A DNA stretch of 59,775 bases, taken from NCBI GenBank assembly GCA_018823135.1, contig JAHJJF010000106.1, positions 1-59,775 of the forward strand. The letters are read 5' to 3'. This DNA comes from Pseudomonadota bacterium (lineage in GTDB: Bacteria; Desulfobacterota; Desulfobulbia; Desulfobulbales; CALZHT01). The notes below the pieces were generated by a model. The model had not been told where the DNA came from, did no database searches, and worked only from the letters and a program-made list of their open reading frames with translations. Positions 22,074 to 32,807 of this stretch are shown piece by piece. The translations under genes were made by a program, and so were the position numbers. Each line of letters opens with the position of its first letter. The first letter of the stretch is position 1.

Positions 22074-22147
22074 GTGTGATTCTGGGACTGAAAGGATGCC
22101 TGTGTCTTGAAATGTTTCATGGTGGTTGATGGGGGGACAGTGTATTG

Positions 22148-23569
22148 ATGCCTGCAAAAGAAAAACAATCTAATCCTCAGGCAATAAGCGCCATACTCAA
22201 GGGTATGGATTTTTCAGGATTTGTCGACTCGATCCCCCATGGGGTGCTTCTCCTGGATTCGAACCTCCGGGTGCTCGCCGTCAATCAGGTCATGGAGGCG
22301 CTTACCGGTTATTCGCGGGAAAATGCCTATGGGGTTCGAGGTGAATACATTATTCGGAGCAGTCTCGGGCAGGAGGGAGATCCTGTAGGAGAAGTGTATC
22401 AATCCGGTGTGGCAGTTACCATTGAGGCGGATATTATCAATAGGAATCGCAAGAAAAAGCCTGTTCGGTTTACGATTTCGCCGCTAAAAAGAGCAAGTGG
22501 TGAAATTGCCGGAGTTGTTGTTTGTCTTGAAGACATATCCCTTTTAAAGGATCGGGTTCATGGTTTTTCAAAATCGGAGAAGATAATCGGTCATAGTCGC
22601 AAGATGCAGGAAATTTTCGAGTTGCTGCCGATTATTGCCCGAACTGATGCATCGGCATTGCTTACCGGTGAAACCGGCACGGGAAAAGATCTGTTTGCCG
22701 AGGCGATCCATCTGGCTTCGAAAAGGTCGCCGCAGCCATTCATTAAAATCAATTGCGGCGCTCTTCCTGAGGCGCTGCTCGAGTCCGAACTCTTCGGGCA
22801 TGTTCGCGGCGCTTTTACCGGGGCTGACAGGGACAAGCCCGGCATGTTCAGGCTTGCCCACGGCGGGACGATTTTTTTGACCGAGATCGGTGATCTGCCG
22901 CTGCCGCTTCAGGTGAAACTGCTCACGGTGCTTGATGATAAGGAGTTTTTCCCGGTGGGGGGATCAAAGAAGGTCTGTGTCGATGTCCGGATCATTGCCG
23001 CGACCCATCGTGATTTAAGGGAGTTTGTCCGGCTGGGCAAGTTCAGGGAGGATTTATTTTACCGGCTGAATGTCCTGCATCTGCATATTCCGCCGCTTCG
23101 GGAGCGGGAGGATGATTTCAGGCTCCTGGTCGATCATTTTTTAAGGGAGTTTTCCGGGAAACTAAATAAGGATATCAAGGGGTTCAATGTGTCCTGCTTT
23201 GAGAGGTTGTCATCCTATTCCTTTCCTGGAAATGTTCGCGAGCTCAGAAATATTGTGGAATATGCAGTGAATATCTGTCAGAGTCGTACCATAGAGCCTG
23301 CACATCTTCCGAATTATATTTTTTCAGAGGAGCTTCAGGTTTCAGAGGAGGCGAATAGCAAGACTTCTGAAGGGGCCAAGTTCGAGGGGGAGGCAAAACC
23401 TGTCGGCGGATTCAGGGCTTCCGGGCCTTTGGCTTGGAATGAAATGGAAAAACAGATGATCATTGACGCGTTAGTCAAGACCGGTGGCAGGCGGATAGAG
23501 GCTGCAAAAATACTTGGCTGGGGACGAAGCACCTTGTGGCGCAAATTAAAACACCACGCTCTTGCCTGA
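22148..23569 (+). CDS. PAS-domain sigma-54-dependent transcriptional activator
   Basis: The 473-residue protein has an N-terminal PAS domain (about 22-135; IPHGVLLLDSNLRVLAVN), a sigma-54 AAA+ domain with Walker A GETGTGKD at about 173-180 and the sigma-54-contacting GAFTGA at about 221-226, and a C-terminal Fis-type helix-turn-helix (GRRIEAAKILGWGRSTLWRKL). It activates sigma-54 promoters in response to a signal sensed by PAS. The Walker B is FLTEIGD: Thr245 replaces the Asp usual in FLDEIG. The ATG at 22148 follows a TTG by one codon. It heads the regulatory cluster and may control the genes downstream. Confidence 0.9.
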   Translation: MPAKEKQSNPQAISAILKGMDFSGFVDSIPHGVLLLDSNLRVLAVNQVMEALTGYSRENAYGVRGEYIIRSSLGQEGDPVGEVYQSGVAVTIEADIINRNRKKKPVRFTISPLKRASGEIAGVVVCLEDISLLKDRVHGFSKSEKIIGHSRKMQEIFELLPIIARTDASALLTGETGTGKDLFAEAIHLASKRSPQPFIKINCGALPEALLESELFGHVRGAFTGADRDKPGMFRLAHGGTIFLTEIGDLPLPLQVKLLTVLDDKEFFPVGGSKKVCVDVRIIAATHRDLREFVRLGKFREDLFYRLNVLHLHIPPLREREDDFRLLVDHFLREFSGKLNKDIKGFNVSCFERLSSYSFPGNVRELRNIVEYAVNICQSRTIEPAHLPNYIFSEELQVSEEANSKTSEGAKFEGEAKPVGGFRASGPLAWNEMEKQMIIDALVKTGGRRIEAAKILGWGRSTLWRKLKHHALA

Positions 23570-23754: not shown

Positions 23755-24090
23755 ATGAAAATTCTCGTTACAATTCATGAAAATGATGTTGCAGCCCGAT
23801 TTGATTTAGCGACGGAGGTTCTCATTGCCGAAGCAATCGAAGGCCGCATTCTTGGCGAGCCTAGGATTATTCTTCTTCCTCGGGCATCCGGAGACGAGTT
23901 GTGCGGCCTGTCCGTAAAGGAAGATGTTTCCATTGTTATTTGTGGTGGGGTTGAAGGCGCTCATTTCGAGTATCTCATCTGGAAAAAAATAACCGTTTTC
24001 GATGGCATTATTGGGCCATATTCCGAAGCACTGGACTGGGTGCTGGCTGGTCGTTTGAAAAACGGCACTATTCTCCCCGGTTCAAGATGA
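23755..24090 (+). CDS. NifX/NifB-family (dinitrogenase Fe-Mo cofactor-like) protein
   Basis: The 111-residue product has the single-domain NifX/NafY fold: KILVTIHENDVAARFDLATE at the start, a central strand SIVICGGVEGAHFEYLIWK and a terminal region DGIIGPYSEALDWVL. In nitrogen fixers such proteins carry iron-molybdenum cofactor precursors, but many anaerobes have stand-alone homologues without nitrogenase. No nif genes are visible here. Its position directly before a histidine kinase (13-base gap) suggests a sensory or metal/cluster-binding accessory of the signalling block. The His and Cys that might bind a ligand include Cys51 and Cys63. Confidence 0.75.
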   Translation: MKILVTIHENDVAARFDLATEVLIAEAIEGRILGEPRIILLPRASGDELCGLSVKEDVSIVICGGVEGAHFEYLIWKKITVFDGIIGPYSEALDWVLAGRLKNGTILPGSR

Positions 24091-24103: not shown

Positions 24104-25876
24104 ATGATTTATCTCCTGAAAAAACTTTTCAAGTATCTGGTCATGGATACCTTTGAGGCTGCAAGGCCTTTTACGGTAGGCAAGCGTTATAAGCATTTCC
24201 GCCGTACCCTGCTTTTAATAATGACGGTGATCACCATGACCCCCCTTGTTGTCGCCGCGACCCTGAGTTATTACCAGTATCAGGTTCTCCTGGAAAAGGA
24301 ATTTAAGAATCATATCCGCTGGAATGCGGAGAGTGCCGGCAGGACTATAAGTGCATTTATTGAAGAGCTTCGTTCGGTAATCGGGTTTATTGCTGACGAG
24401 TATAGTCATGAAGACTTAGCCGATCAAGAATTCCTGAGCTCACTATTTTCCCGACTGAAGCATAAGCGCGGCCTTGTTGACTTGGGATATATTGATCCAA
24501 GGGGCATTCAGCAAACTTATGCAGGGCCGTATGAATTCCGGGGGAAGGGGTATCGCAATATGGTGTGGCTCAAAGAGTCCATTGCGCGCCGGAGTACGGT
24601 CAGTGAAGTGTTTATGGGATATCGTAAGATGCCTCATTTTGTTATCGCTTTAACGAAAAAAAGGCCTGGTCTGGAGGAATACTGGGTGCTCAGGGCCAGC
24701 ATTGACGCCGAGACGCTGGGGCAATTTATTGGAACAATTGATACGGAGGCCTCTGATGATATTTTTCTTATCAACCATGCGGGTGAGTTGCAGACCTCAT
24801 CCCGTTATTTTGGAAAAGTGGGGGATACGTTTCCACTGGAGAGTCTTCCTTATAAAAGTGGTGTGACTCTGAAGGTGGAAAAGGGTGATTCTTTTACCAG
24901 TCTAAAGGCCTTTGCCTATATTGAGGGAACTCCGTGGATTCTGGTCCTTGTCAAGCGTGGGTATATCCATGAGAGAGTATGGTCCTCATTCAAGATGGAA
25001 TTGATTGGTATAGTCTTTATAAGCGCTGTGCTGGCATTCATCGTGATTTTGCGAACAGCAAATATACTCGGGAGTCGTATTCGGGAGGCGGACGAAAAGC
25101 GCGAGGCCATGCTTTCTGAAGTTGAACATACAAGTAAGCTTGCATCAATAGGCAGACTTGCTGCCGGTGTTGCGCATGAAATTAATAATCCCCTGGCGAT
25201 CATCAGTGAGAAGGCGGGGTTGATGCATGACTTTCTTGAAATCTCAGGAGATTTTCAATATAAAGATAATTTTTATGGTCAGATCGGCGGTATTTTAGAT
25301 GCGGTGAACCGTTGCAAGGTTATTACTCATCGGCTGCTGGGTTTTGCAAGACGTATGGATGTAACCCCGGAGTTCATATTACTTAACGAGGTGGTCCGGG
25401 AGGTTTTGAGTTTTCTTGATAAAGAGAGTCTGTATCGCGGCATCAAATTCGAGTTGGAACTGCAGGAAAATTTGCCAAAAATCCAGAGTGACAAGGGGCA
25501 GTTGCAGCAGATTTTGTTAAATATCATTAATAATGCTATCGATGCACTGGAGAGAGGCGGAAGGGTCGTCATTGCATCCTGCAGTTATGGTGAGGCGTTT
25601 GTTGGGGTTCGTATTTCAGACAACGGCCCCGGGATATCCGAAGAAAATATGAAGTATATTTTCGAGCCGTTTTTCACGACAAAAACCCATGGCGAGCATA
25701 AGGGCACAGGGTTAGGCCTTTCCATAACCTATGGCCTTGTGAAAAAGCTAGGTGGAAAAATTTCTGTAGAAAGTACTCTCGGTGTTGGCTCGACTTTTAA
25801 CATAATGTTGCCGATTGAGTTTAAGGTCGGCCTGGATGGTGAAGATGGAAGCGATACGGGTTTTGTTGGTGGATGA
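24104..25876 (+). CDS. membrane sensor histidine kinase with periplasmic Cache-like domain
   Basis: The 590-residue kinase has a first membrane helix at about 35-60, a periplasmic sensor region of about 240 residues (YIDPRGIQQTYAGPYEFRGK and the FLINHAGELQTSS stretch resemble dCache domains) and a second helix at about 299-320. The DHp H-box is LAAGVAHEINNPLAII, with phospho-acceptor His358. The ATPase domain has LLNIINNAIDAL, DNGPGIS and GTGLGLSI. All catalytic boxes are intact. AGGGGG precedes the ATG at good spacing. The following receiver gene starts inside its 3' end, so the two are coupled and are probably cognate partners. Confidence 0.92.
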   Translation: MIYLLKKLFKYLVMDTFEAARPFTVGKRYKHFRRTLLLIMTVITMTPLVVAATLSYYQYQVLLEKEFKNHIRWNAESAGRTISAFIEELRSVIGFIADEYSHEDLADQEFLSSLFSRLKHKRGLVDLGYIDPRGIQQTYAGPYEFRGKGYRNMVWLKESIARRSTVSEVFMGYRKMPHFVIALTKKRPGLEEYWVLRASIDAETLGQFIGTIDTEASDDIFLINHAGELQTSSRYFGKVGDTFPLESLPYKSGVTLKVEKGDSFTSLKAFAYIEGTPWILVLVKRGYIHERVWSSFKMELIGIVFISAVLAFIVILRTANILGSRIREADEKREAMLSEVEHTSKLASIGRLAAGVAHEINNPLAIISEKAGLMHDFLEISGDFQYKDNFYGQIGGILDAVNRCKVITHRLLGFARRMDVTPEFILLNEVVREVLSFLDKESLYRGIKFELELQENLPKIQSDKGQLQQILLNIINNAIDALERGGRVVIASCSYGEAFVGVRISDNGPGISEENMKYIFEPFFTTKTHGEHKGTGLGLSITYGLVKKLGGKISVESTLGVGSTFNIMLPIEFKVGLDGEDGSDTGFVGG

Positions 25877-26237
25877 TGAAAAAGAGTTTGTTGTTACCCT
25901 TGCCGAGCGTTTGAGATTGCGAGGTTTTGACACAACTCCGGTGGTTTGTGCTGAGGATGTTTTCGCTCTGATCCGCTCGGAAGGTTCTCCGGACGTTGTT
26001 TTGCTTGATTTGAAAATGCCGGATATGGATGGGATGGATGTTTTGGCAAACATTAAGTTGTTCGATCCCTCCATTGAGGTCATCATGCTGACCGGTCATG
26101 GTGGTGACCCGGAAGGGGTTGGAGCGAAGAAGGGTGGTGCCTTTGAATATATCATGAAACCGATAGATATTGCCGAACTGATGGTCAAGATCAACCAGGC
26201 TGCAGCGCAACGTCGAAGGGGTTTGTCTGGTTCGTGA
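25845..26237 (+). CDS. stand-alone response regulator receiver
   Basis: The product is a single receiver domain of about 130 residues with all key residues: LLVDDEKEF (acidic pair), VLLDLKMPDMDGMD (phospho-Asp), MLTGHGG (Thr) and YIMKPID (Lys). There is no output domain. Its start overlaps the last 32 bases of the kinase gene; the ATG at 25845 is preferred, with one at 25836 as the alternative. It probably accepts phosphate from the upstream kinase and passes it on. The downstream kinase-like gene begins at or just after its stop. Confidence 0.9.
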   Translation: MEAIRVLLVDDEKEFVVTLAERLRLRGFDTTPVVCAEDVFALIRSEGSPDVVLLDLKMPDMDGMDVLANIKLFDPSIEVIMLTGHGGDPEGVGAKKGGAFEYIMKPIDIAELMVKINQAAAQRRRGLSGS

Positions 26238-26269
26238 AATATCCCGGTTGGCAGGAGGGTGTCTTGAGT

Positions 26270-26947
26270 ATGGATAGCAGTAAATCGCTGAAAGATCTGC
26301 AGTTGGCTTTTGTTGGCAAACTCCTCGCCGGTTATTCACATGAGTCTAAAAATCATCTGGCAATCATCAAGGAATTAAGCGGTTTGATGGATGATTTGCT
26401 GAGCATGGAAAATCAGGGTGAGGACAGGGGGAGGCAGCGCTATCACGAAATAATGGCAACGCTAAGGGATCGGGCCACTCAGGCGGCTTTCAGGGTTGGG
26501 CATCTCAGTCGTTTTGCTCATCGCATGGATGAACCGCGCACTTCTTTTAATGTCAATGATATATTGGAGGAGGAATTATCTTTGCTTGGCTGGAAGGCAA
26601 AGCAAAAGGAGATTCGGCTGGAGGCATTTTTTGCAGATAACCAGCTGCCGTCAATTTACAATAACCCATCTCTCTTGCAGTATGTGGTTTTTTGCATCGT
26701 TGTCGACTGTTTTGAAAGGTTTGAGGCAAAGAGTTGTATTCAGGTTTCAACTATAAGCAAGGGGCAGTCAGTCTGCATAGAATTGTCGTGCAGTGGTTCC
26801 TGGAAATCCGGGAACGGCAAGCGGGGTTCCCTCGTTCTCTCAAGTATGCTGGGCGATGCACTGAGCGAACTCGGGGCAGGACTTTCTGCAACGGTAGATG
26901 AAAATGGCAAGGCCTGTTTCAGTGTAACTCTCTCTTCCCTGGTTTGA
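26270..26947 (+). CDS. histidine-kinase-like protein with degenerate ATPase domain (possible phosphotransferase)
   Basis: The product is about 225 residues with no membrane segment or sensor domain. It has a DHp-like H-box, LLAGYSHESKNHLAIIKEL (His24), and the two-helix continuation (RDRATQAAFRVGHLSRFAHRM). The C-terminal domain follows HATPase spacing, but the N-box Asn is missing (YVVFCIVVDCFERF) and no DxGxG or GxGxG motif is seen. This organisation resembles ChpT/Spo0B-like phosphotransferases, which shuttle phosphate between receivers. AGGAGG at 26253-26258 supports the ATG at 26270 or the TTG at 26264; a GTG overlapping the previous stop is also possible. Confidence 0.68.
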   Translation: MDSSKSLKDLQLAFVGKLLAGYSHESKNHLAIIKELSGLMDDLLSMENQGEDRGRQRYHEIMATLRDRATQAAFRVGHLSRFAHRMDEPRTSFNVNDILEEELSLLGWKAKQKEIRLEAFFADNQLPSIYNNPSLLQYVVFCIVVDCFERFEAKSCIQVSTISKGQSVCIELSCSGSWKSGNGKRGSLVLSSMLGDALSELGAGLSATVDENGKACFSVTLSSLV

Positions 26948-27407
26948 AGTAACTGTGTTCAAGTGGACAATTCTTGTCCGTCTATGGCGCCGGCCCTTGT
27001 GTGCAAAGGCCTTGCGCATCTTTCTGCAACTCAAAAAACATCATTTCGCTCTAATGTTTTTCACCAGTAATTCGGTGATGGCATAAGGGGTTCGTATAAT
27101 CGGATGTGGTTCATTTTGAAACATTGTAGAACGTTATGGTATTTTCGAATAACTTGCAGGAGTTACTGGCTATCCTGCTGGTTTTACAGGTATTTTCTTT
27201 GGGTGTTTTAGCTTTAATGTCCCATATTGTTTCTTTGTGGTTCTCCTTCAGCCTCGGAGGTTTTTGTTGTGAAGGTTGACTTAAGTAGCTGTAGTTATGT
27301 TCTTTTTCTTGAGTGTCGCCGCGGTGGCATAGTAGTTGCATTATTTATCTGCAAAGGCATTAATCTCAAAGGCCCTAAGATTTCTACCACCAACAAGGAG
27401 GCCCGTT
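26948..27407. other. intergenic region with one possible small membrane ORF
   Basis: The 460-base gap lies within the cluster. It holds only a 47-codon open frame (27136-27279, listed separately). No terminator with a T-run was seen. Confidence 0.4.
27136..27279 (+). CDS. possible 47-residue membrane peptide
   Basis: The frame reads MVFSNNLQELLAILLVLQVF followed by a second hydrophobic stretch and GGFCCEG. The length and hydrophobicity suit a small membrane protein, but there is no clear ribosome binding site and no homology was recognised. It may be chance. Confidence 0.2.
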   Translation: MVFSNNLQELLAILLVLQVFSLGVLALMSHIVSLWFSFSLGGFCCEG

Positions 27408-27734
27408 ATGGAAACTAAATTATTGAGATTTGAAAGAAAGATGGTTGAGGCATTTGATAACATGATGGTGGCTGCAACTTTTGCAGAGGCGGGGGAATGG
27501 GATACTGCCAGAACAATGATTCCTGCAGCAAAGGTCAGCGCCAAGGTAAATGTGTGGGATCAGCTCTTTACGGCAATTACCTTTGCTGAAGGAGGGCTTT
27601 TTGACGAAGCGCGACAGATAATAACCGGCATGGAGAAATGTGTATCAAGAAAACCATTGGATCTGGTCGCCCTTGAACAATTGGGGCTTAGGAAAATTCA
27701 TTTAGTTTATGGGACGATGTCGGTTGAGTGCTGA
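27408..27734 (+). CDS. small protein with two TFAEAGE-type helical motifs
   Basis: The 108-residue product starts at an ATG seven bases after AAGGAG. It carries VAATFAEAGEWDTAR at about 21-35 and a second, looser copy ITFAEGGLFDEARQI at about 57-71. Near-identical motifs lie in the C-terminal tails of the receiver proteins at 27814 and 28373. The pattern (A-x(4)-A-E-x-G-x(4)-A) resembles a TPR-type helix pair. It has no export signal and no known catalytic motif. I infer a cytosolic adaptor that docks on, or competes with, the receivers. Confidence 0.7.
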   Translation: METKLLRFERKMVEAFDNMMVAATFAEAGEWDTARTMIPAAKVSAKVNVWDQLFTAITFAEGGLFDEARQIITGMEKCVSRKPLDLVALEQLGLRKIHLVYGTMSVEC

Positions 27735-27813
27735 GACGAGATTCGAAGAAGGCTTGAATTCTGTATAGTTTTCGGAGAAAATTAATTCCAACTCGTGTCC
27801 GGAGAGTGGACAT

Positions 27814-28338
27814 ATGGATGCAAAAATCCTTGTTGTTGTTAAGGATTCAATTTTCAAGGATGCCCTGAGGGAAAAATTAGATAAGCGGGGTTTTTCGGTT
27901 ATAGCTGTTAGTGAAAGAAGCGCAGCTGTTGAAGCAGTTGCTGGAAATGAAATTGATATCGTATTGCTCGATATCAGAAATCAGGGCAAAGAAGCCATGC
28001 AGACCATGACAGAGATGAAACAGGCCAACCCGACAGCAGAGGTCATCATGTTGGCAAGTGATTTTGACATATCATGGTCTATGGAAGGGATGCGGCAGGG
28101 TGCTGCTGATGATATCACAGTACCTTTTGAAATTGACAAGTTGATTTTTAAAATTCATGAGATTTATAGACGAAAAAAATCGCGAATTTCTTTTAGAAAA
28201 TTAAGGTCATTTCTGGGTGTTATTGAAAATGCCATGGTAGCGGCAACCTTTGCACAAGCCGGAGAGTTTGAGACTGCAAAAGAGATTCACGGTAGAACTG
28301 AAGATGACAAATCAGGTAGCTCCGGGAAAAGAGACTAA
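27814..28338 (+). CDS. degenerate receiver-domain protein with TFAQAGE tail
   Basis: The 174-residue product has a receiver fold, but the acidic pair is replaced (ILVVVKDS instead of VVDDE) and the conserved Lys is lost (ITVPFE in place of a KP motif). The central Asp (VLLDIRNQG, Asp53) remains. Phosphorylation in the ordinary way is therefore doubtful. After a basic linker (YRRKKSRISFRKL) comes MVAATFAQAGEFETAK at about 141-156, the motif shared with the 27408 and 28373 products. GGAGAG precedes the ATG. It may act as a phosphorylation-independent partner in the cluster. Confidence 0.78.
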   Translation: MDAKILVVVKDSIFKDALREKLDKRGFSVIAVSERSAAVEAVAGNEIDIVLLDIRNQGKEAMQTMTEMKQANPTAEVIMLASDFDISWSMEGMRQGAADDITVPFEIDKLIFKIHEIYRRKKSRISFRKLRSFLGVIENAMVAATFAQAGEFETAKEIHGRTEDDKSGSSGKRD

Positions 28339-28372
28339 GTTCTGAAATGATTCAATAAACGGGAGGTATTCC

Positions 28373-28825
28373 ATGGGTGAAATGAAAGTATTGATAGTTG
28401 ATGATGAAGAGTCTTTTGCCAGGACTCTATCCGAACGATTGAATATGCGGGAACTTGAAACTGACACTGCTTATAATGGCGAAGAAGCTCTGGGCTTTGT
28501 GGATGATAAAGAACCTGATGTCATGGTGTTGGATTTAAAAATGCCGGGGATTGATGGCATGGAGGTGCTCAGGCGTGTAAAAAAGAAATATCCACATTTG
28601 CAGGTAATTATTCTTACAGGGCATGGAACGGATAAGGATGAAGATGAGGCAAAGAGTCTTGGGGTCTTTGATTATTTGAATAAGCCCATAGAAATAGAAA
28701 TACTCGTAAGCCGAATTAAGGCTGCATACCAGGCAAAAATAAATACAACCATGACAGCGGTTACCTTTGCTGAAGCAGGAGAATATGATACGGCCCGTGA
28801 AATTTTAGAAAATTCGGATAAGTAG
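28373..28825 (+). CDS. response regulator receiver with TFAEAGE tail
   Basis: The 150-residue protein has a complete receiver: VLIVDDEESF, phospho-Asp in VLDLKMPGIDGME, LTGHGTD and YLNKPIE. In place of a DNA-binding domain it has a short C-terminal tail with MTAVTFAEAGEYDTAREI at about 127-144. GGGAGG lies 6-7 bases before the ATG. It sits 34 bases after the degenerate receiver gene and 23 before the next receiver, so the three are very probably one transcript. Confidence 0.9.
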   Translation: MGEMKVLIVDDEESFARTLSERLNMRELETDTAYNGEEALGFVDDKEPDVMVLDLKMPGIDGMEVLRRVKKKYPHLQVIILTGHGTDKDEDEAKSLGVFDYLNKPIEIEILVSRIKAAYQAKINTTMTAVTFAEAGEYDTAREILENSDK

Positions 28826-28848: not shown

Positions 28849-29289
28849 ATGGCCGATCAAATCAAATGTAACGTTTTGTTGGTGGATGATGAGGTACAGT
28901 TTTTAGATGCGCTTTCCCAGCGGCTGGAAATCCGTGGTCTTTCTGTTGATACAGTCAAGGATGGAGAAGAAGCCCTTGCCAAGATAGACGAGAAGCCCTT
29001 TGATGCCATAGTTTTGGATTTGGCCATGCCCGGCATTGACGGTATTGAAACATTGAGGTTGCTCAAGGAAAAACAGCCCGATCTGCAGATCATAATGCTG
29101 ACAGGTCATGCTACGGTTAAAAGCGGGATTGACGCAATGAAAATGGGCGCTGAGGATTTTCTGGAGAAACCTTTGGATTTGAATGTGCTTCTTGAGAAAT
29201 TAACTCAAGCGAAAAATAAAACAATGCTCCTTGTCGAGAAGAGCCGCCAGGAGGAAGTAAGGAAAATTATTAAAAGTAAAAGCTGGTAA
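28849..29289 (+). CDS. response regulator receiver with basic C-terminal tail
   Basis: The 146-residue product has an intact receiver (LLVDDEVQFLDAL; VLDLAMPGIDGIE; MLTGHATV; FLEKPLD). A short Lys-rich helix (VEKSRQEEVRKIIKSKSW) replaces an output domain. It lacks the TFAEAGE motif found in its two upstream neighbours. AAGGAG precedes the ATG at 8 bases. It is the last receiver of the block. Confidence 0.9.
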   Translation: MADQIKCNVLLVDDEVQFLDALSQRLEIRGLSVDTVKDGEEALAKIDEKPFDAIVLDLAMPGIDGIETLRLLKEKQPDLQIIMLTGHATVKSGIDAMKMGAEDFLEKPLDLNVLLEKLTQAKNKTMLLVEKSRQEEVRKIIKSKSW

Positions 29290-29478: not shown

Positions 29479-30006
29479 GTGACTGCTGACAATCATCCGG
29501 TCGTTAAGGACTATATCATTCCTCTGGCAAGATATCCGCATCTGAAAGAAACGCAAACACTCCATGATGCCGTGCAGGCGATCCAGGAATTCACCTGCGG
29601 CGAAAATAACCGTCTGAGATATTCAGAGATGCTGGTTGTTAATGAACGGAATCAACTTGTGGGGCGGCTGTCCATAGAGAATATTCTTGAGGGCCTTGAT
29701 AAGCGCCTTGTGGAAGTGCCGAAGGTTAAAGGCTTTGAAGGAAAGGGCGGTGAGTATCCCAACCTGTCGATTTTATGGGAAGATTCCTTTTTCATGAAGT
29801 GTACGGAAAAAAAGGATGAGCAGATCAAGGGTTTTATGACGCCCACAGACAGGTTGGTCAAGGGGAGCGATTCCCTGCTCAAGGCCCTGTCCATCATGTT
29901 GCACACCAAAGAGGTTATCCTGCCGGTTTCTGATCAGGAACGGATTATCGGTGTCATCCGGCTTGAGGAGATTTTCAAGGCGATATGCAGCGTTTGTAAG
30001 CTGTGA
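29479..30006 (+). CDS. CBS-domain pair protein
   Basis: The 175-residue product is almost entirely one CBS pair: LHDAVQAIQEF...MLVVNERNQLVGRLSIENIL and, at the C-terminus, MTPTDRLVKGSDSLLKALSIML...LPVSDQERIIGVIRLEEIF. CBS pairs bind adenosine nucleotides and regulate transporters and enzymes. The start is a GTG with AAGGAGA upstream. It lies 47 bases before the SLC13-type transporter gene, so I infer it senses energy state or a related nucleotide signal for that transporter. Confidence 0.85.
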   Translation: MTADNHPVVKDYIIPLARYPHLKETQTLHDAVQAIQEFTCGENNRLRYSEMLVVNERNQLVGRLSIENILEGLDKRLVEVPKVKGFEGKGGEYPNLSILWEDSFFMKCTEKKDEQIKGFMTPTDRLVKGSDSLLKALSIMLHTKEVILPVSDQERIIGVIRLEEIFKAICSVCKL

Positions 30007-30053: not shown

Positions 30054-31541
30054 ATGACAAATTCTAATGCTGATGTGAGTGTCGCGATGAAAAACGTGCC
30101 GTTTGACTGGAAACGCTTACTGTTTCTGTCCATAGGTGTCATAGCATTCTTAGGTGTATATTATTCGCCCCTGTGGCCGGATGCCGTTGACCCCATGGGG
30201 GAACATTTTCTTTTAACCAAGGAGGGAAAGGGCGCTCTGGCGGTTTTCTGCCTGGCGGCGACCTGGTGGGTCTTCGAAGTGGTTCCCATCGGAGTCACCA
30301 GTCTCACCATCGGCATGCTGCAGGCCCTTTTTTTTATCCGGCCTGCCAAGGTGGCCTTCAAGGATTTCATGGACCCGTCGGTTCTTTTTATTTTCGGTTC
30401 CATTGTTATCGGTATGGTTTTCACCAAGACCGGCCTGACCAAACGTGTTGCCTATAAAATGCTCTCCATTGTCGGCGAAAAGACCAGCATGATATACCTG
30501 GGTTGTTTTGTGCTCACCGCCGCTCTGACACATATCATGGCTCATACCGCGGTTGCGGCCACCATGTTCCCGTTGCTGATGGCCATATACGCACTGTACT
30601 CCGACGAACAAGGTCCCACCAAATTCGGTAAAGGGCTGTTCATCGGCATGGCATATGTGGCAGGAGCCGGCAGTATCATCACCCTGCTGGGTGCAGCCCG
30701 TGGTGCGGTGGCCCTTGGATTTTACAAGGATATCACCGGAGTGGATATCAGTTTTTTCCAGCTTACCTACTACATGTTTCCCATCGGTTGGGCCTTCACT
30801 TTTCTGCTGTGGGGCTTTTTCATGCTGGTCTGTAAACCTGAAAAGAAAGTCATTCCCGGACTCAAGGAAAAAGCGAAAAGAATGTACATAGAGCTCGGCT
30901 CCTGGTCCACCAAGGAAATTCTGGCCTCTCTTATTGTTGGTCTGACCATTCTGGTCATCTCTGCAAAGGCCTTTGTTCCGGCGTTGGAGGGACTTGACAA
31001 GACCGGTATTCTCCTTATCTCAACTATTCTTTTTTTCATCGTCAATATTCTGGACATCAATGATCTGGAAGAGATTCCCTGGAACATTATTCTGTTGTTT
31101 GCCGGCGCCATGTCCATCGGTTTCTGCCTGTGGGAAACCGGCGCTGCAAAATGGATGGCAGTCAACTGGCTCACCCTGTTCCAGAGCGCCCCGGCAATCG
31201 TCTTCATCCTGGGCATGGCATTTTTCGTGATGATCATGACCAACTTCATCATGAACGTTGCGGCAATCGCCATTTCCCTGCCGGTGGCACTGGTAATCGC
31301 TCCCTATCTCGGAGTTGCAGGTGAAGTAATTTTATTCTCCGCCCTGGTTGTTGCCGGTATGCCTTTTCTGTTGCTGGTAGGTGCGGCGCCCAACGCCATT
31401 GCGTATAACTCCAAGCAGTTCACCACCGGAGAATTCTTTGCTTACGGGATCCCTGCCAGTATTCTGCTTATGGTGGTGGTCTGGATAGCTGTTCAATTTG
31501 TCTGGCCGCTTATGGGCATGGAGGTTTATCTGCCCAAATAA
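30054..31541 (+). CDS. SLC13/DASS-family Na+-coupled anion symporter
   Basis: The 495-residue integral membrane protein has about 11-12 hydrophobic segments. It contains LTHIMAHTAVAATMFPLLMAI (first half, anion/Na+ clamshell) and a second-half counterpart, MTNFIMNVAAIAISLPVAL, consistent with the duplicated SNT-like loops of DASS carriers. Typical substrates are sulfate or C4-dicarboxylates carried with Na+. The ribosome site is GAGGTGAGGGG. It is followed by a putative carbonic anhydrase of the LCIB type and an NhaD antiporter, so bicarbonate must also be considered as a substrate. Confidence 0.87.
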   Translation: MTNSNADVSVAMKNVPFDWKRLLFLSIGVIAFLGVYYSPLWPDAVDPMGEHFLLTKEGKGALAVFCLAATWWVFEVVPIGVTSLTIGMLQALFFIRPAKVAFKDFMDPSVLFIFGSIVIGMVFTKTGLTKRVAYKMLSIVGEKTSMIYLGCFVLTAALTHIMAHTAVAATMFPLLMAIYALYSDEQGPTKFGKGLFIGMAYVAGAGSIITLLGAARGAVALGFYKDITGVDISFFQLTYYMFPIGWAFTFLLWGFFMLVCKPEKKVIPGLKEKAKRMYIELGSWSTKEILASLIVGLTILVISAKAFVPALEGLDKTGILLISTILFFIVNILDINDLEEIPWNIILLFAGAMSIGFCLWETGAAKWMAVNWLTLFQSAPAIVFILGMAFFVMIMTNFIMNVAAIAISLPVALVIAPYLGVAGEVILFSALVVAGMPFLLLVGAAPNAIAYNSKQFTTGEFFAYGIPASILLMVVVWIAVQFVWPLMGMEVYLPK

Positions 31542-31610: not shown

Positions 31611-32807
31611 ATGCAGGATTCAAAGCAACATCTTGAGATAATACGTGAAACCGTCCCGTTTCATGTGGACAACCTGGCGATGCCTTATGCTGAATTTGTG
31701 CCCCGCCTCTATAATTACTGTAAAGCGCTGGGTTTCCGTAAAGGGCTGATCATGCCTTCCAGGGCTTTTTGCTCTGATGAAAATCAAGGCCTGCCGATAA
31801 TTCTCCTTACCAAACATTTCGGGTCATTTCCTTTCAACCACGGCCGGGTTGGTGGCATCGTCGCTACCAGTCGGCATGGTCCCCATGCACATCATGGTGA
31901 GGACTCGGTCATTGTTCAGGCAAGTCATGTTGGCTATGATCCTGATACTGGAATCTATGGCAGATACCGGCGTCCGAAAATGGAGACAAAAACGGCTTCG
32001 GTTTCCTGTGGGAAAATTACCCATGTGATTACTCCCTACCTCGATCAGTATAAATTTGCTCGTGATCGGATTTTTCTTCTCCGGGGCGAGAACGGTCAAT
32101 ACCTGATCAAGGTTAAAAACTCATTTGTTGATTTCGCCTCTCATCCGGTTAAAAAAGGGTTTTTTCTGCGTTTAGAGGATATTGCCAAATCAAACGGCAA
32201 CGGCAAAATACGGCCGGTTGGATCTTACAGCACCTCGCAGACTTATGAGGTCTCGGATTCCTTCAGGGAACGGATGGACGCCGCCGGATATTCCTGGAAA
32301 TCCGGGCATGGCGAAAAAATAGGTGACTTTCTGACCGCTGATTTGTTTGATTATCACGAAGAACTCCATGAAACCGATGATTCAATTCTGCTGGAGAGAA
32401 ATCTTATTCAATTCATGCCCCAGATCGTCACCGCTAAAAGCCCGCAACTGCAAGCTGCATTGATTAATATACAACTCGAATTTGCCCGCGCTGTGGAATC
32501 TATTCGACGCGGCCAGGAATATGCCGGTAAAAATCTTCTTTATATTGCCGGCCTTAATATTGATATTTCAGAATATTTTGTGGTTACTCAAAATGCCTAT
32601 CCGGCAACCACCTATTTTGTTCCCTGGGCCGCTCATATTCAACTCAAAGACAGTGATCCTGAAACCTATATTCATCCTCTGGAGCAGCAAGAGCTTTTTG
32701 ATAAACTGATGGAACAGAGTGTCGACAATCCGGATCAGGTTAATCTGAAAGAGGAAATTGCCAAAATGATGAAAGCGCCGCGCTTTGATATCCGTTCGCC
32801 CGTATAG
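31611..32807 (+). CDS. LCIB/C-like beta-carbonic anhydrase family protein (putative)
   Basis: The 398-residue protein matches the conserved pattern of algal and bacterial LCIB/C proteins, recalled rather than searched: CSDE (Cys54, Asp56), then GRVGGIVATSRHGPHAHHG, ASHVGYDPDTGIYGRYRR (His106) and SVSCGK (Cys133). Cys-His-Cys would be the zinc ligands and Asp the dyad partner, as in beta-carbonic anhydrases that interconvert CO2 and bicarbonate. The C-terminal ~200 residues are not assigned. No signal peptide is present, so it is cytosolic. It lies between a Na+ symporter (69 bases) and an NhaD antiporter (115 bases). Confidence 0.62.
   Translation: MQDSKQHLEIIRETVPFHVDNLAMPYAEFVPRLYNYCKALGFRKGLIMPSRAFCSDENQGLPIILLTKHFGSFPFNHGRVGGIVATSRHGPHAHHGEDSVIVQASHVGYDPDTGIYGRYRRPKMETKTASVSCGKITHVITPYLDQYKFARDRIFLLRGENGQYLIKVKNSFVDFASHPVKKGFFLRLEDIAKSNGNGKIRPVGSYSTSQTYEVSDSFRERMDAAGYSWKSGHGEKIGDFLTADLFDYHEELHETDDSILLERNLIQFMPQIVTAKSPQLQAALINIQLEFARAVESIRRGQEYAGKNLLYIAGLNIDISEYFVVTQNAYPATTYFVPWAAHIQLKDSDPETYIHPLEQQELFDKLMEQSVDNPDQVNLKEEIAKMMKAPRFDIRSPV

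Follow-up and report, generated by a model that had tools for sequence, protein, structure and literature searches.

A motif shared by three neighbouring proteins is strongly supported to be a conserved, mobile alpha-hairpin of the tetratricopeptide repeat (TPR) type, about 34 residues in length and termed here the FAEAGE hairpin. The proteins are encoded in the window analyzed, i.e., the whole 59,775-nucleotide stretch of contig JAHJJF010000106.1 from a Pseudomonadota bacterium. Beyond this one cluster, the hairpin recurs as a module in numerous proteins of two phyla. Its occurrence in a characteristic gene cluster, in which many of the operons are preceded by sigma-54-type promoters, is likewise strongly supported.

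Hairpin copies and neighbouring genes in the window

The window carries four hairpin copies, two of which are located in a single small protein. The genes and sites concerned are given below, and proteins are designated by the first position of their genes.

22145-23569, + strand: PAS - sigma-54 activator (enhancer-binding protein) with Fis-type HTH (Pfam Sigma54_activat 9e-68, HTH_8, PAS_9)
23755-24090, + strand: small Nitro_FeMo-Co-like protein, recurrent neighbour (cluster 7; nine loci; Pfam PF02579 24.5 bits, slightly below the cut-off of 26.3)
24104-25876, + strand: dCache sensor histidine kinase (Pfam HATPase_c 9e-25; dCache_1 and HisKA slightly below cut-off)
25815-26237, + strand: single-domain response regulator (Pfam Response_reg 7e-24)
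26234-26947, + strand: kinase-like protein with phospho-accepting His motif SHExKN and ATP-binding boxes lost (alignment with 16 relatives and histidine kinase 24104; ZraS/AtoS-like match)
27325-27340, + strand: sigma-54 promoter-like site TGGCATAGTAGTTGCA, exact match, 67 bp before the ATG at 27408
27408-27734, + strand: two-hairpin small protein, 108 aa, with C-terminal LGL..(I/V)...YG segment (relatives in 18 other loci)
27459-27530, + strand: hairpin copy 1 in the 27408 protein (profile E 4.5e-13)
27561-27635, + strand: hairpin copy 2 in the 27408 protein, 34 residues past copy 1 (profile E 9.9e-12)
27814-28338, + strand: degenerate (pseudo-)receiver with hairpin tail (Response_reg 1.3e-11)
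28228-28302, + strand: hairpin tail of the 27814 protein (profile E 5.0e-11)
28373-28825, + strand: intact receiver with hairpin tail (Response_reg 4e-30)
28745-28819, + strand: hairpin tail of the 28373 protein (profile E 1.1e-13)
28849-29289, + strand: intact receiver without recognisable hairpin (Response_reg 6e-32)
29479-30006, + strand: CBS-domain protein, recurrent neighbour (cluster 8; nine loci; Pfam CBS 2e-11)
30054-31541, + strand: DASS/SLC13-type anion symporter (Pfam Na_sulph_symp 4e-40; TIGR00785 185 bits, under the cut-off of 198.6)

The motif [VT]A[AV]TFA[EQ]AGE[FWY][ED]TA[KR] was found in all three proteins where an earlier, sequence-only reading had placed it: as VAATFAEAGEWDTAR in the 27408 protein (residues 21-35), VAATFAQAGEFETAK in the 27814 protein (residues 141-156) and TAVTFAEAGEYDTAR in the 28373 protein (residues 127-144). 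The looser second copy described for the 27408 protein is also present (TAITFAEGGLFDEARQ), and F25 and F59 of the two copies are separated by exactly 34 residues, the TPR period. The same reading spoke of three adjacent non-homologous contexts. The sharing of the motif stands, while the non-homology does not, since receiver domains, homologous to each other, account for two of the three; the kinds of context number two within the window and at least six elsewhere.

Neither the 28373 nor the 27814 protein joins its receiver to a DNA-binding domain, as both end after the hairpin. The receiver alpha-5 enters the hairpin and the protein then terminates, in agreement with the earlier proposal that the motif takes the place of a DNA-binding output. 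Relative to 28373, the 27814 protein has retained the phospho-Asp position, has VK in place of the acidic DD pair and lacks both the Thr and the Lys. The 28849 receiver gave no match to the motif profile in the genome-wide search, and the DASS transporter of the window is devoid of the hairpin.

The 22145 protein is the likely activator of the operon, and sigma-54 activators of its family occur in most of the motif loci. The kinase-like family of 26234-26947 is conserved beside tailed receivers and is a candidate phosphotransferase: alignment of the family with histidine kinase 24104 revealed retention of the DHp histidine and loss of the ATP-binding boxes, the combination that characterizes Spo0B and ChpT, and the 26234 protein is thus, judging from its sequence, likely to be a histidine phosphotransferase of that kind. 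Sites with up to one mismatch to the sigma-54 pattern occur at chance level in the window, and the exact site at 27325-27340 means little by itself. A separate observation concerns the 398-aa protein encoded at 31611-32807, between the DASS symporter and a NhaD antiporter; its weak match to LCIB_C_CA (carbonic-anhydrase-like; 21.1 bits versus a cut-off of 25) might point to an involvement of the operon with bicarbonate.

Conservation and TPR-type character of the hairpin

A 25-column motif profile, searched against the whole 3.6 Mb genome, detected 11 clear copies with E-values from 6e-10 to 1e-13. They are confined to three clusters: the window (four), contig C86 (four) and contig C136 (three). 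One further weak match in the C136 cluster (E 0.35) represents a small open frame that consists of little more than the motif. A chance origin of the motif was rejected on the basis of these E-values and of the reversed-sequence profile, which matched none of 148 genomes at E <= 0.01.

Among 188 distinct copies, A8, F11, A12, E/Q13, G15 and A20 are each conserved at 97-99%, with both A12 and E/Q13 at 99% (motif column 8 was set as TPR position 11). When these copies were compared with the TPR signature, positions 8, 11, 20 and 24 (hydrophobic at 24) agreed, while positions 4, 7, 27 and 32 did not. Positions 12 and 13 are variable and ligand-facing in ordinary TPRs. The suggestion of a TPR-type helix pair, made originally from the sequence, is supported by the period of 34, by the fit of positions 8, 11, 15, 20 and 24, by the helix-turn-helix of the AlphaFold models and by the predominance of TPR structures, all of them weak matches, among the top Foldseek/VIA results. 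The best E-value in these structural comparisons was 0.4 (none E < 0.001) and Z was at most 3.6, and the best Foldseek matches were TPR designs such as 1na3.

In the AlphaFold model of the 27408 protein (mean pLDDT 70), two hairpins are followed by a small beta-hairpin. In that of 28373 (mean pLDDT 86; tail 60-73), the alpha-5 helix (108-134) continues into the motif and is followed by a helix at 138-147; the pLDDT of the hairpins is moderate (60-80). A 98-column profile of the two-hairpin protein matched a synthetic pentatricopeptide repeat (PPR) protein (E 1e-7), and the 25-column motif profile found nothing significant in the PDB. Alignment of a two-hairpin profile with two consensus TPR sequences by hhalign gave a probability of 3% over 13 columns, a value that is uninformative for a profile of only two rows.

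No Pfam TPR model exceeded its cut-off on the motif (TPR_6, 16.7 and 22.8 bits versus 26.3; TPR_4, 23.2 versus 27; TPR_14, 22.6 versus 23.5), and the motif is therefore called TPR-type and is not filed in any Pfam TPR family. More generally, no Pfam or NCBIfam model rose above its cut-off on the motif, in line with the initial impression of a domain not yet described. Searches of open-licence papers turned up no account of such a hairpin module and, among the papers listed, none with the motif string. Matches to ubiquitin-binding and EIIA-Lac families fell below their cut-offs and were dismissed as chance.

Carriers, distribution and gene clusters

At least six protein types, unrelated to one another, were observed to bear the same hairpin; among these are response regulators, with the hairpin as a tail. 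Degenerate USP-like proteins bear one to three copies at the N-terminus, while in other USP-like proteins the hairpin forms an internal loop, which in locus L149 is itself duplicated. Carriers of 50-60 aa comprise the hairpin, a mostly basic tail and little else, and small proteins with tandem hairpins measure about 95-130 aa. A small probable membrane protein, encoded beside a TSUP gene, has the hairpin at its N-terminus. In a PEP-synthase-like enzyme, comparison with a homologue lacking the insertion located a hairpin insertion of roughly 28 residues within the PPDK_N domain; enzymes of this PPDK_N/PEP-utilizer type, about 890 aa in length, are encoded at L132 9650-12316 and L133 3829-6492. 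On contig C86, the hairpin is a separate, overlapping 38-aa ORF beside a pseudo-receiver, whereas in the window (27814) both are fused in one ORF. Nearly all of the carriers in the search of the window's phylum are shorter than 300 aa.

Several individual loci merit separate mention. The protein encoded at L095 8745-9143 contains three near-identical tandem hairpins, spaced 34 and 35 residues apart, apparently the product of a recent duplication. At L055 7067-8572, a transposase-like ORF with HTH domains continues in frame into a two-hairpin protein; this 501-aa carrier was rejected as a genuine fusion, and probably reflects an IS insertion just upstream together with a start-codon artefact. 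The AFA[QE]A strings in three CBS proteins (L055 11612-12160, L080 4042-4590 and L081 3974-4522) resemble the motif core, lack a profile match and may be due to chance. The N-termini of some TSUP proteins (e.g., in L011, AYAAWDLDTSRRIL) appear distantly similar to the motif and, being without profile support, were left out.

The search for receiver tails and small stand-alone proteins, proposed as a check in the sequence-only reading, recovered both types of carrier in other genomes. In this survey of two phyla, the motif profile matched 50 of 395 genomes in that of the window (E <= 0.01) and 62 of 198 genomes of the Nitrospirota, the phylum of the Nitrospirae locus L113 (E <= 0.001). The narrower pattern of the two-hairpin protein was found in 26 loci among 84,980 species scanned, mostly in Desulfobulbaceae and other Deltaproteobacteria MAGs, with one in the Nitrospirae. 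The triad of two-hairpin protein, tailed pseudo-receiver and tailed receiver is syntenic in many Desulfobulbaceae-related genomes, and some genomes (G277, G372, G345 and G058) possess only one recognisable copy of the motif. A plasmid search with the tailed receiver returned receivers in general and nothing more specific.

Among 42 loci from the phylum of the window, to which the genome itself contributes three, the recurrent gene products are sigma-54 activators, histidine kinases, USPs, CBS proteins and Nitro_FeMo-Co-like proteins. A transporter gene (TSUP, SLC13/CitMHS, DASS or NhaD) is located in 32 of these loci; near the other 10 (e.g., L058, L072, L076 and L078) there is no TSUP, SLC13-type or NhaD gene. 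Of the 20 loci from Nitrospirota, 18 possess such a gene. TSUP genes were found within 8 kb of 22 of the 37 motif clusters in 20 genomes (1.2 expected). Sigma-54-type sites with at most one mismatch preceded 35 of 67 motif operon starts, compared with 8 of 348 starts of other operons; for exact sites, the numbers were 12 and 0. These counts are not independent, because operon starts were called mechanically, loci were taken from the better profile matches and the genomes are related.

Possible role of the hairpin and comparison with known systems

That so many carriers share one hairpin suggests a single kind of partner, and the invariance of A12 and E/Q13 is what would be expected if all copies bind it. 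We thus infer a common docking role, as the sequence-only reading had surmised. More specifically, the hairpin may act as a docking tag common to those cytosolic signalling proteins that are encoded in transporter operons under sigma-54 control, a reading to which we assign an even chance of being correct. It is favoured by the diversity of carriers, the fused and split arrangements of hairpin and pseudo-receiver, the synteny of the triad, the transporter genes and sigma-54-type sites of the clusters, the membrane-protein carrier beside TSUP, and the modelled hairpins and continuous alpha-5 helix. It is weakened by the genomes with one recognisable copy, the ten loci devoid of such transporter genes, the hairpin-free DASS transporter of the window, the moderate pLDDT and the weak structural matches. 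The gene order in the window (kinase, receiver, kinase-like protein, tailed receiver) suggests a phosphorelay, in which the dCache kinase 24104, the receiver 25815 and the His-phosphotransferase-like 26234 protein would feed the tailed receiver 28373. The predicted continuity of alpha-5 with the hairpin would offer a route by which phosphorylation, in shifting this helix, could alter the engagement of the partner by the hairpin. The same hairpin is borne by the pseudo-receiver 27814, by the two-hairpin protein 27408 and, elsewhere, by the degenerate USPs, all of which might thus compete for, or co-occupy, one partner. This partner would most likely be the transporter, its small membrane subunit or a hairpin assembly on these, and the likely output would lie at the protein level, as control over transport activity, and not at that of transcription.

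The hairpins might instead stack edge to edge on each other, as in a TPR solenoid, to give a composite solenoid or homodimers of the carriers. The stacking faces of a TPR-type hairpin are exposed when it stands alone, proteins with two or three copies at a 34-35-residue spacing are known (L095), and in many genomes several carriers are encoded per operon. The single-copy genomes, however, imply that different proteins cannot generally assemble through contacts between their hairpins, although homodimers would still be allowed, and the invariant polar E/Q13 does not correspond to a packing position in known TPRs. Homotypic stacking is considered rather unlikely; the partner candidates that remain in view of the single-copy genomes are homodimers, the transporter, the small membrane subunit and the kinases. 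Quite improbable, in our estimation, is a turnover or delivery tag, by which a protease or chaperone would limit the lifetime of the sigma-54-induced proteins: the location of the hairpin at the ends of proteins and in stand-alone ones that are small and often basic, as well as its mobility between proteins, would suit such a tag, but the hairpin also resides inside the PPDK_N-type enzyme and USP folds, and no protease appears among the annotated recurrent neighbour families.

The possibility that the copies are ordinary TPR fragments without a common role, similar through convergence on the TPR consensus, draws on the agreement at positions 8, 11, 15, 20 and 24 and on the subthreshold TPR_4, TPR_6 and TPR_14 matches. 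Yet none of the 73 TPR_16 matches in the genome overlaps the motif, the profile finds no long TPR proteins, and nearly all carriers in the phylum search are small. The conservation exceeds the TPR structural positions, and the copies lie in one recurring type of cluster. An ordinary TPR unrestricted to such clusters, the outcome that would have told against the sequence-only reading, was therefore not what was observed, and this explanation is largely excluded. The docking-tag reading can also be broadened: the hairpin would then serve as an interchangeable plug-in code for building a transporter-bound complex of receivers, pseudo-receivers, degenerate USPs, tiny adaptors and the PEP-synthase-like enzyme, possibly with the repeats of one solenoid distributed among these proteins. 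We put this forward tentatively, as possible but somewhat short of probable.

If the docking-tag reading is true, sulfate reducers and Nitrospirota would couple phosphorelay and USP signals by a common means to anion transporters, the substrates and regulation of which are poorly known. The hairpin module would allow annotation of many hypothetical proteins in these lineages, and its natural single-hairpin and two- to three-copy relatives of one TPR-type repeat would be useful for studying the origin of repeat proteins.

TSUP genes were reported in all 44 sulfate-reducer genomes examined in one study, in which the family was called poorly characterised (PMC5840216). In Desulfovibrio vulgaris, sigma-54 activators control TSUP/PSE transporter operons of unknown substrate (PMC4641369). 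These operons, of the TSUP type, resemble the present clusters with their putative sigma-54 control, and the passages concerned mention neither the hairpin nor the proteins that carry it. The universal stress protein TeaD, which regulates the ectoine transporter TeaABC (Schweikhard 2010, as cited in PMC3673472), offers no more than a works-like comparison. The likeness would lie in a USP-fold protein tied to the control of a neighbouring transporter; the motif clusters differ in their TSUP or SLC13-type transporters. TeaABC is a TRAP transporter, and TeaD is not known to carry such a hairpin.

The hairpin shares with the TPR/PPR alpha-hairpin superfamily the 34-residue period, A8, F11, G15, A20, the hydrophobic position 24 and, as predicted, the helix-turn-helix. 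In contrast to that superfamily, it usually occurs as a single hairpin rather than an array, with A12 and E/Q13 invariant, and in one kind of cluster. Single TPR-like hairpins in non-repetitive proteins have been described for Tom20, the MIT domain and ribosomal protein S20 (PMC5074805), which resemble the motif in having one such hairpin outside an array. These represent three separate PDB families, whereas the FAEAGE hairpin is one mobile module, in one to three copies, on many carriers.
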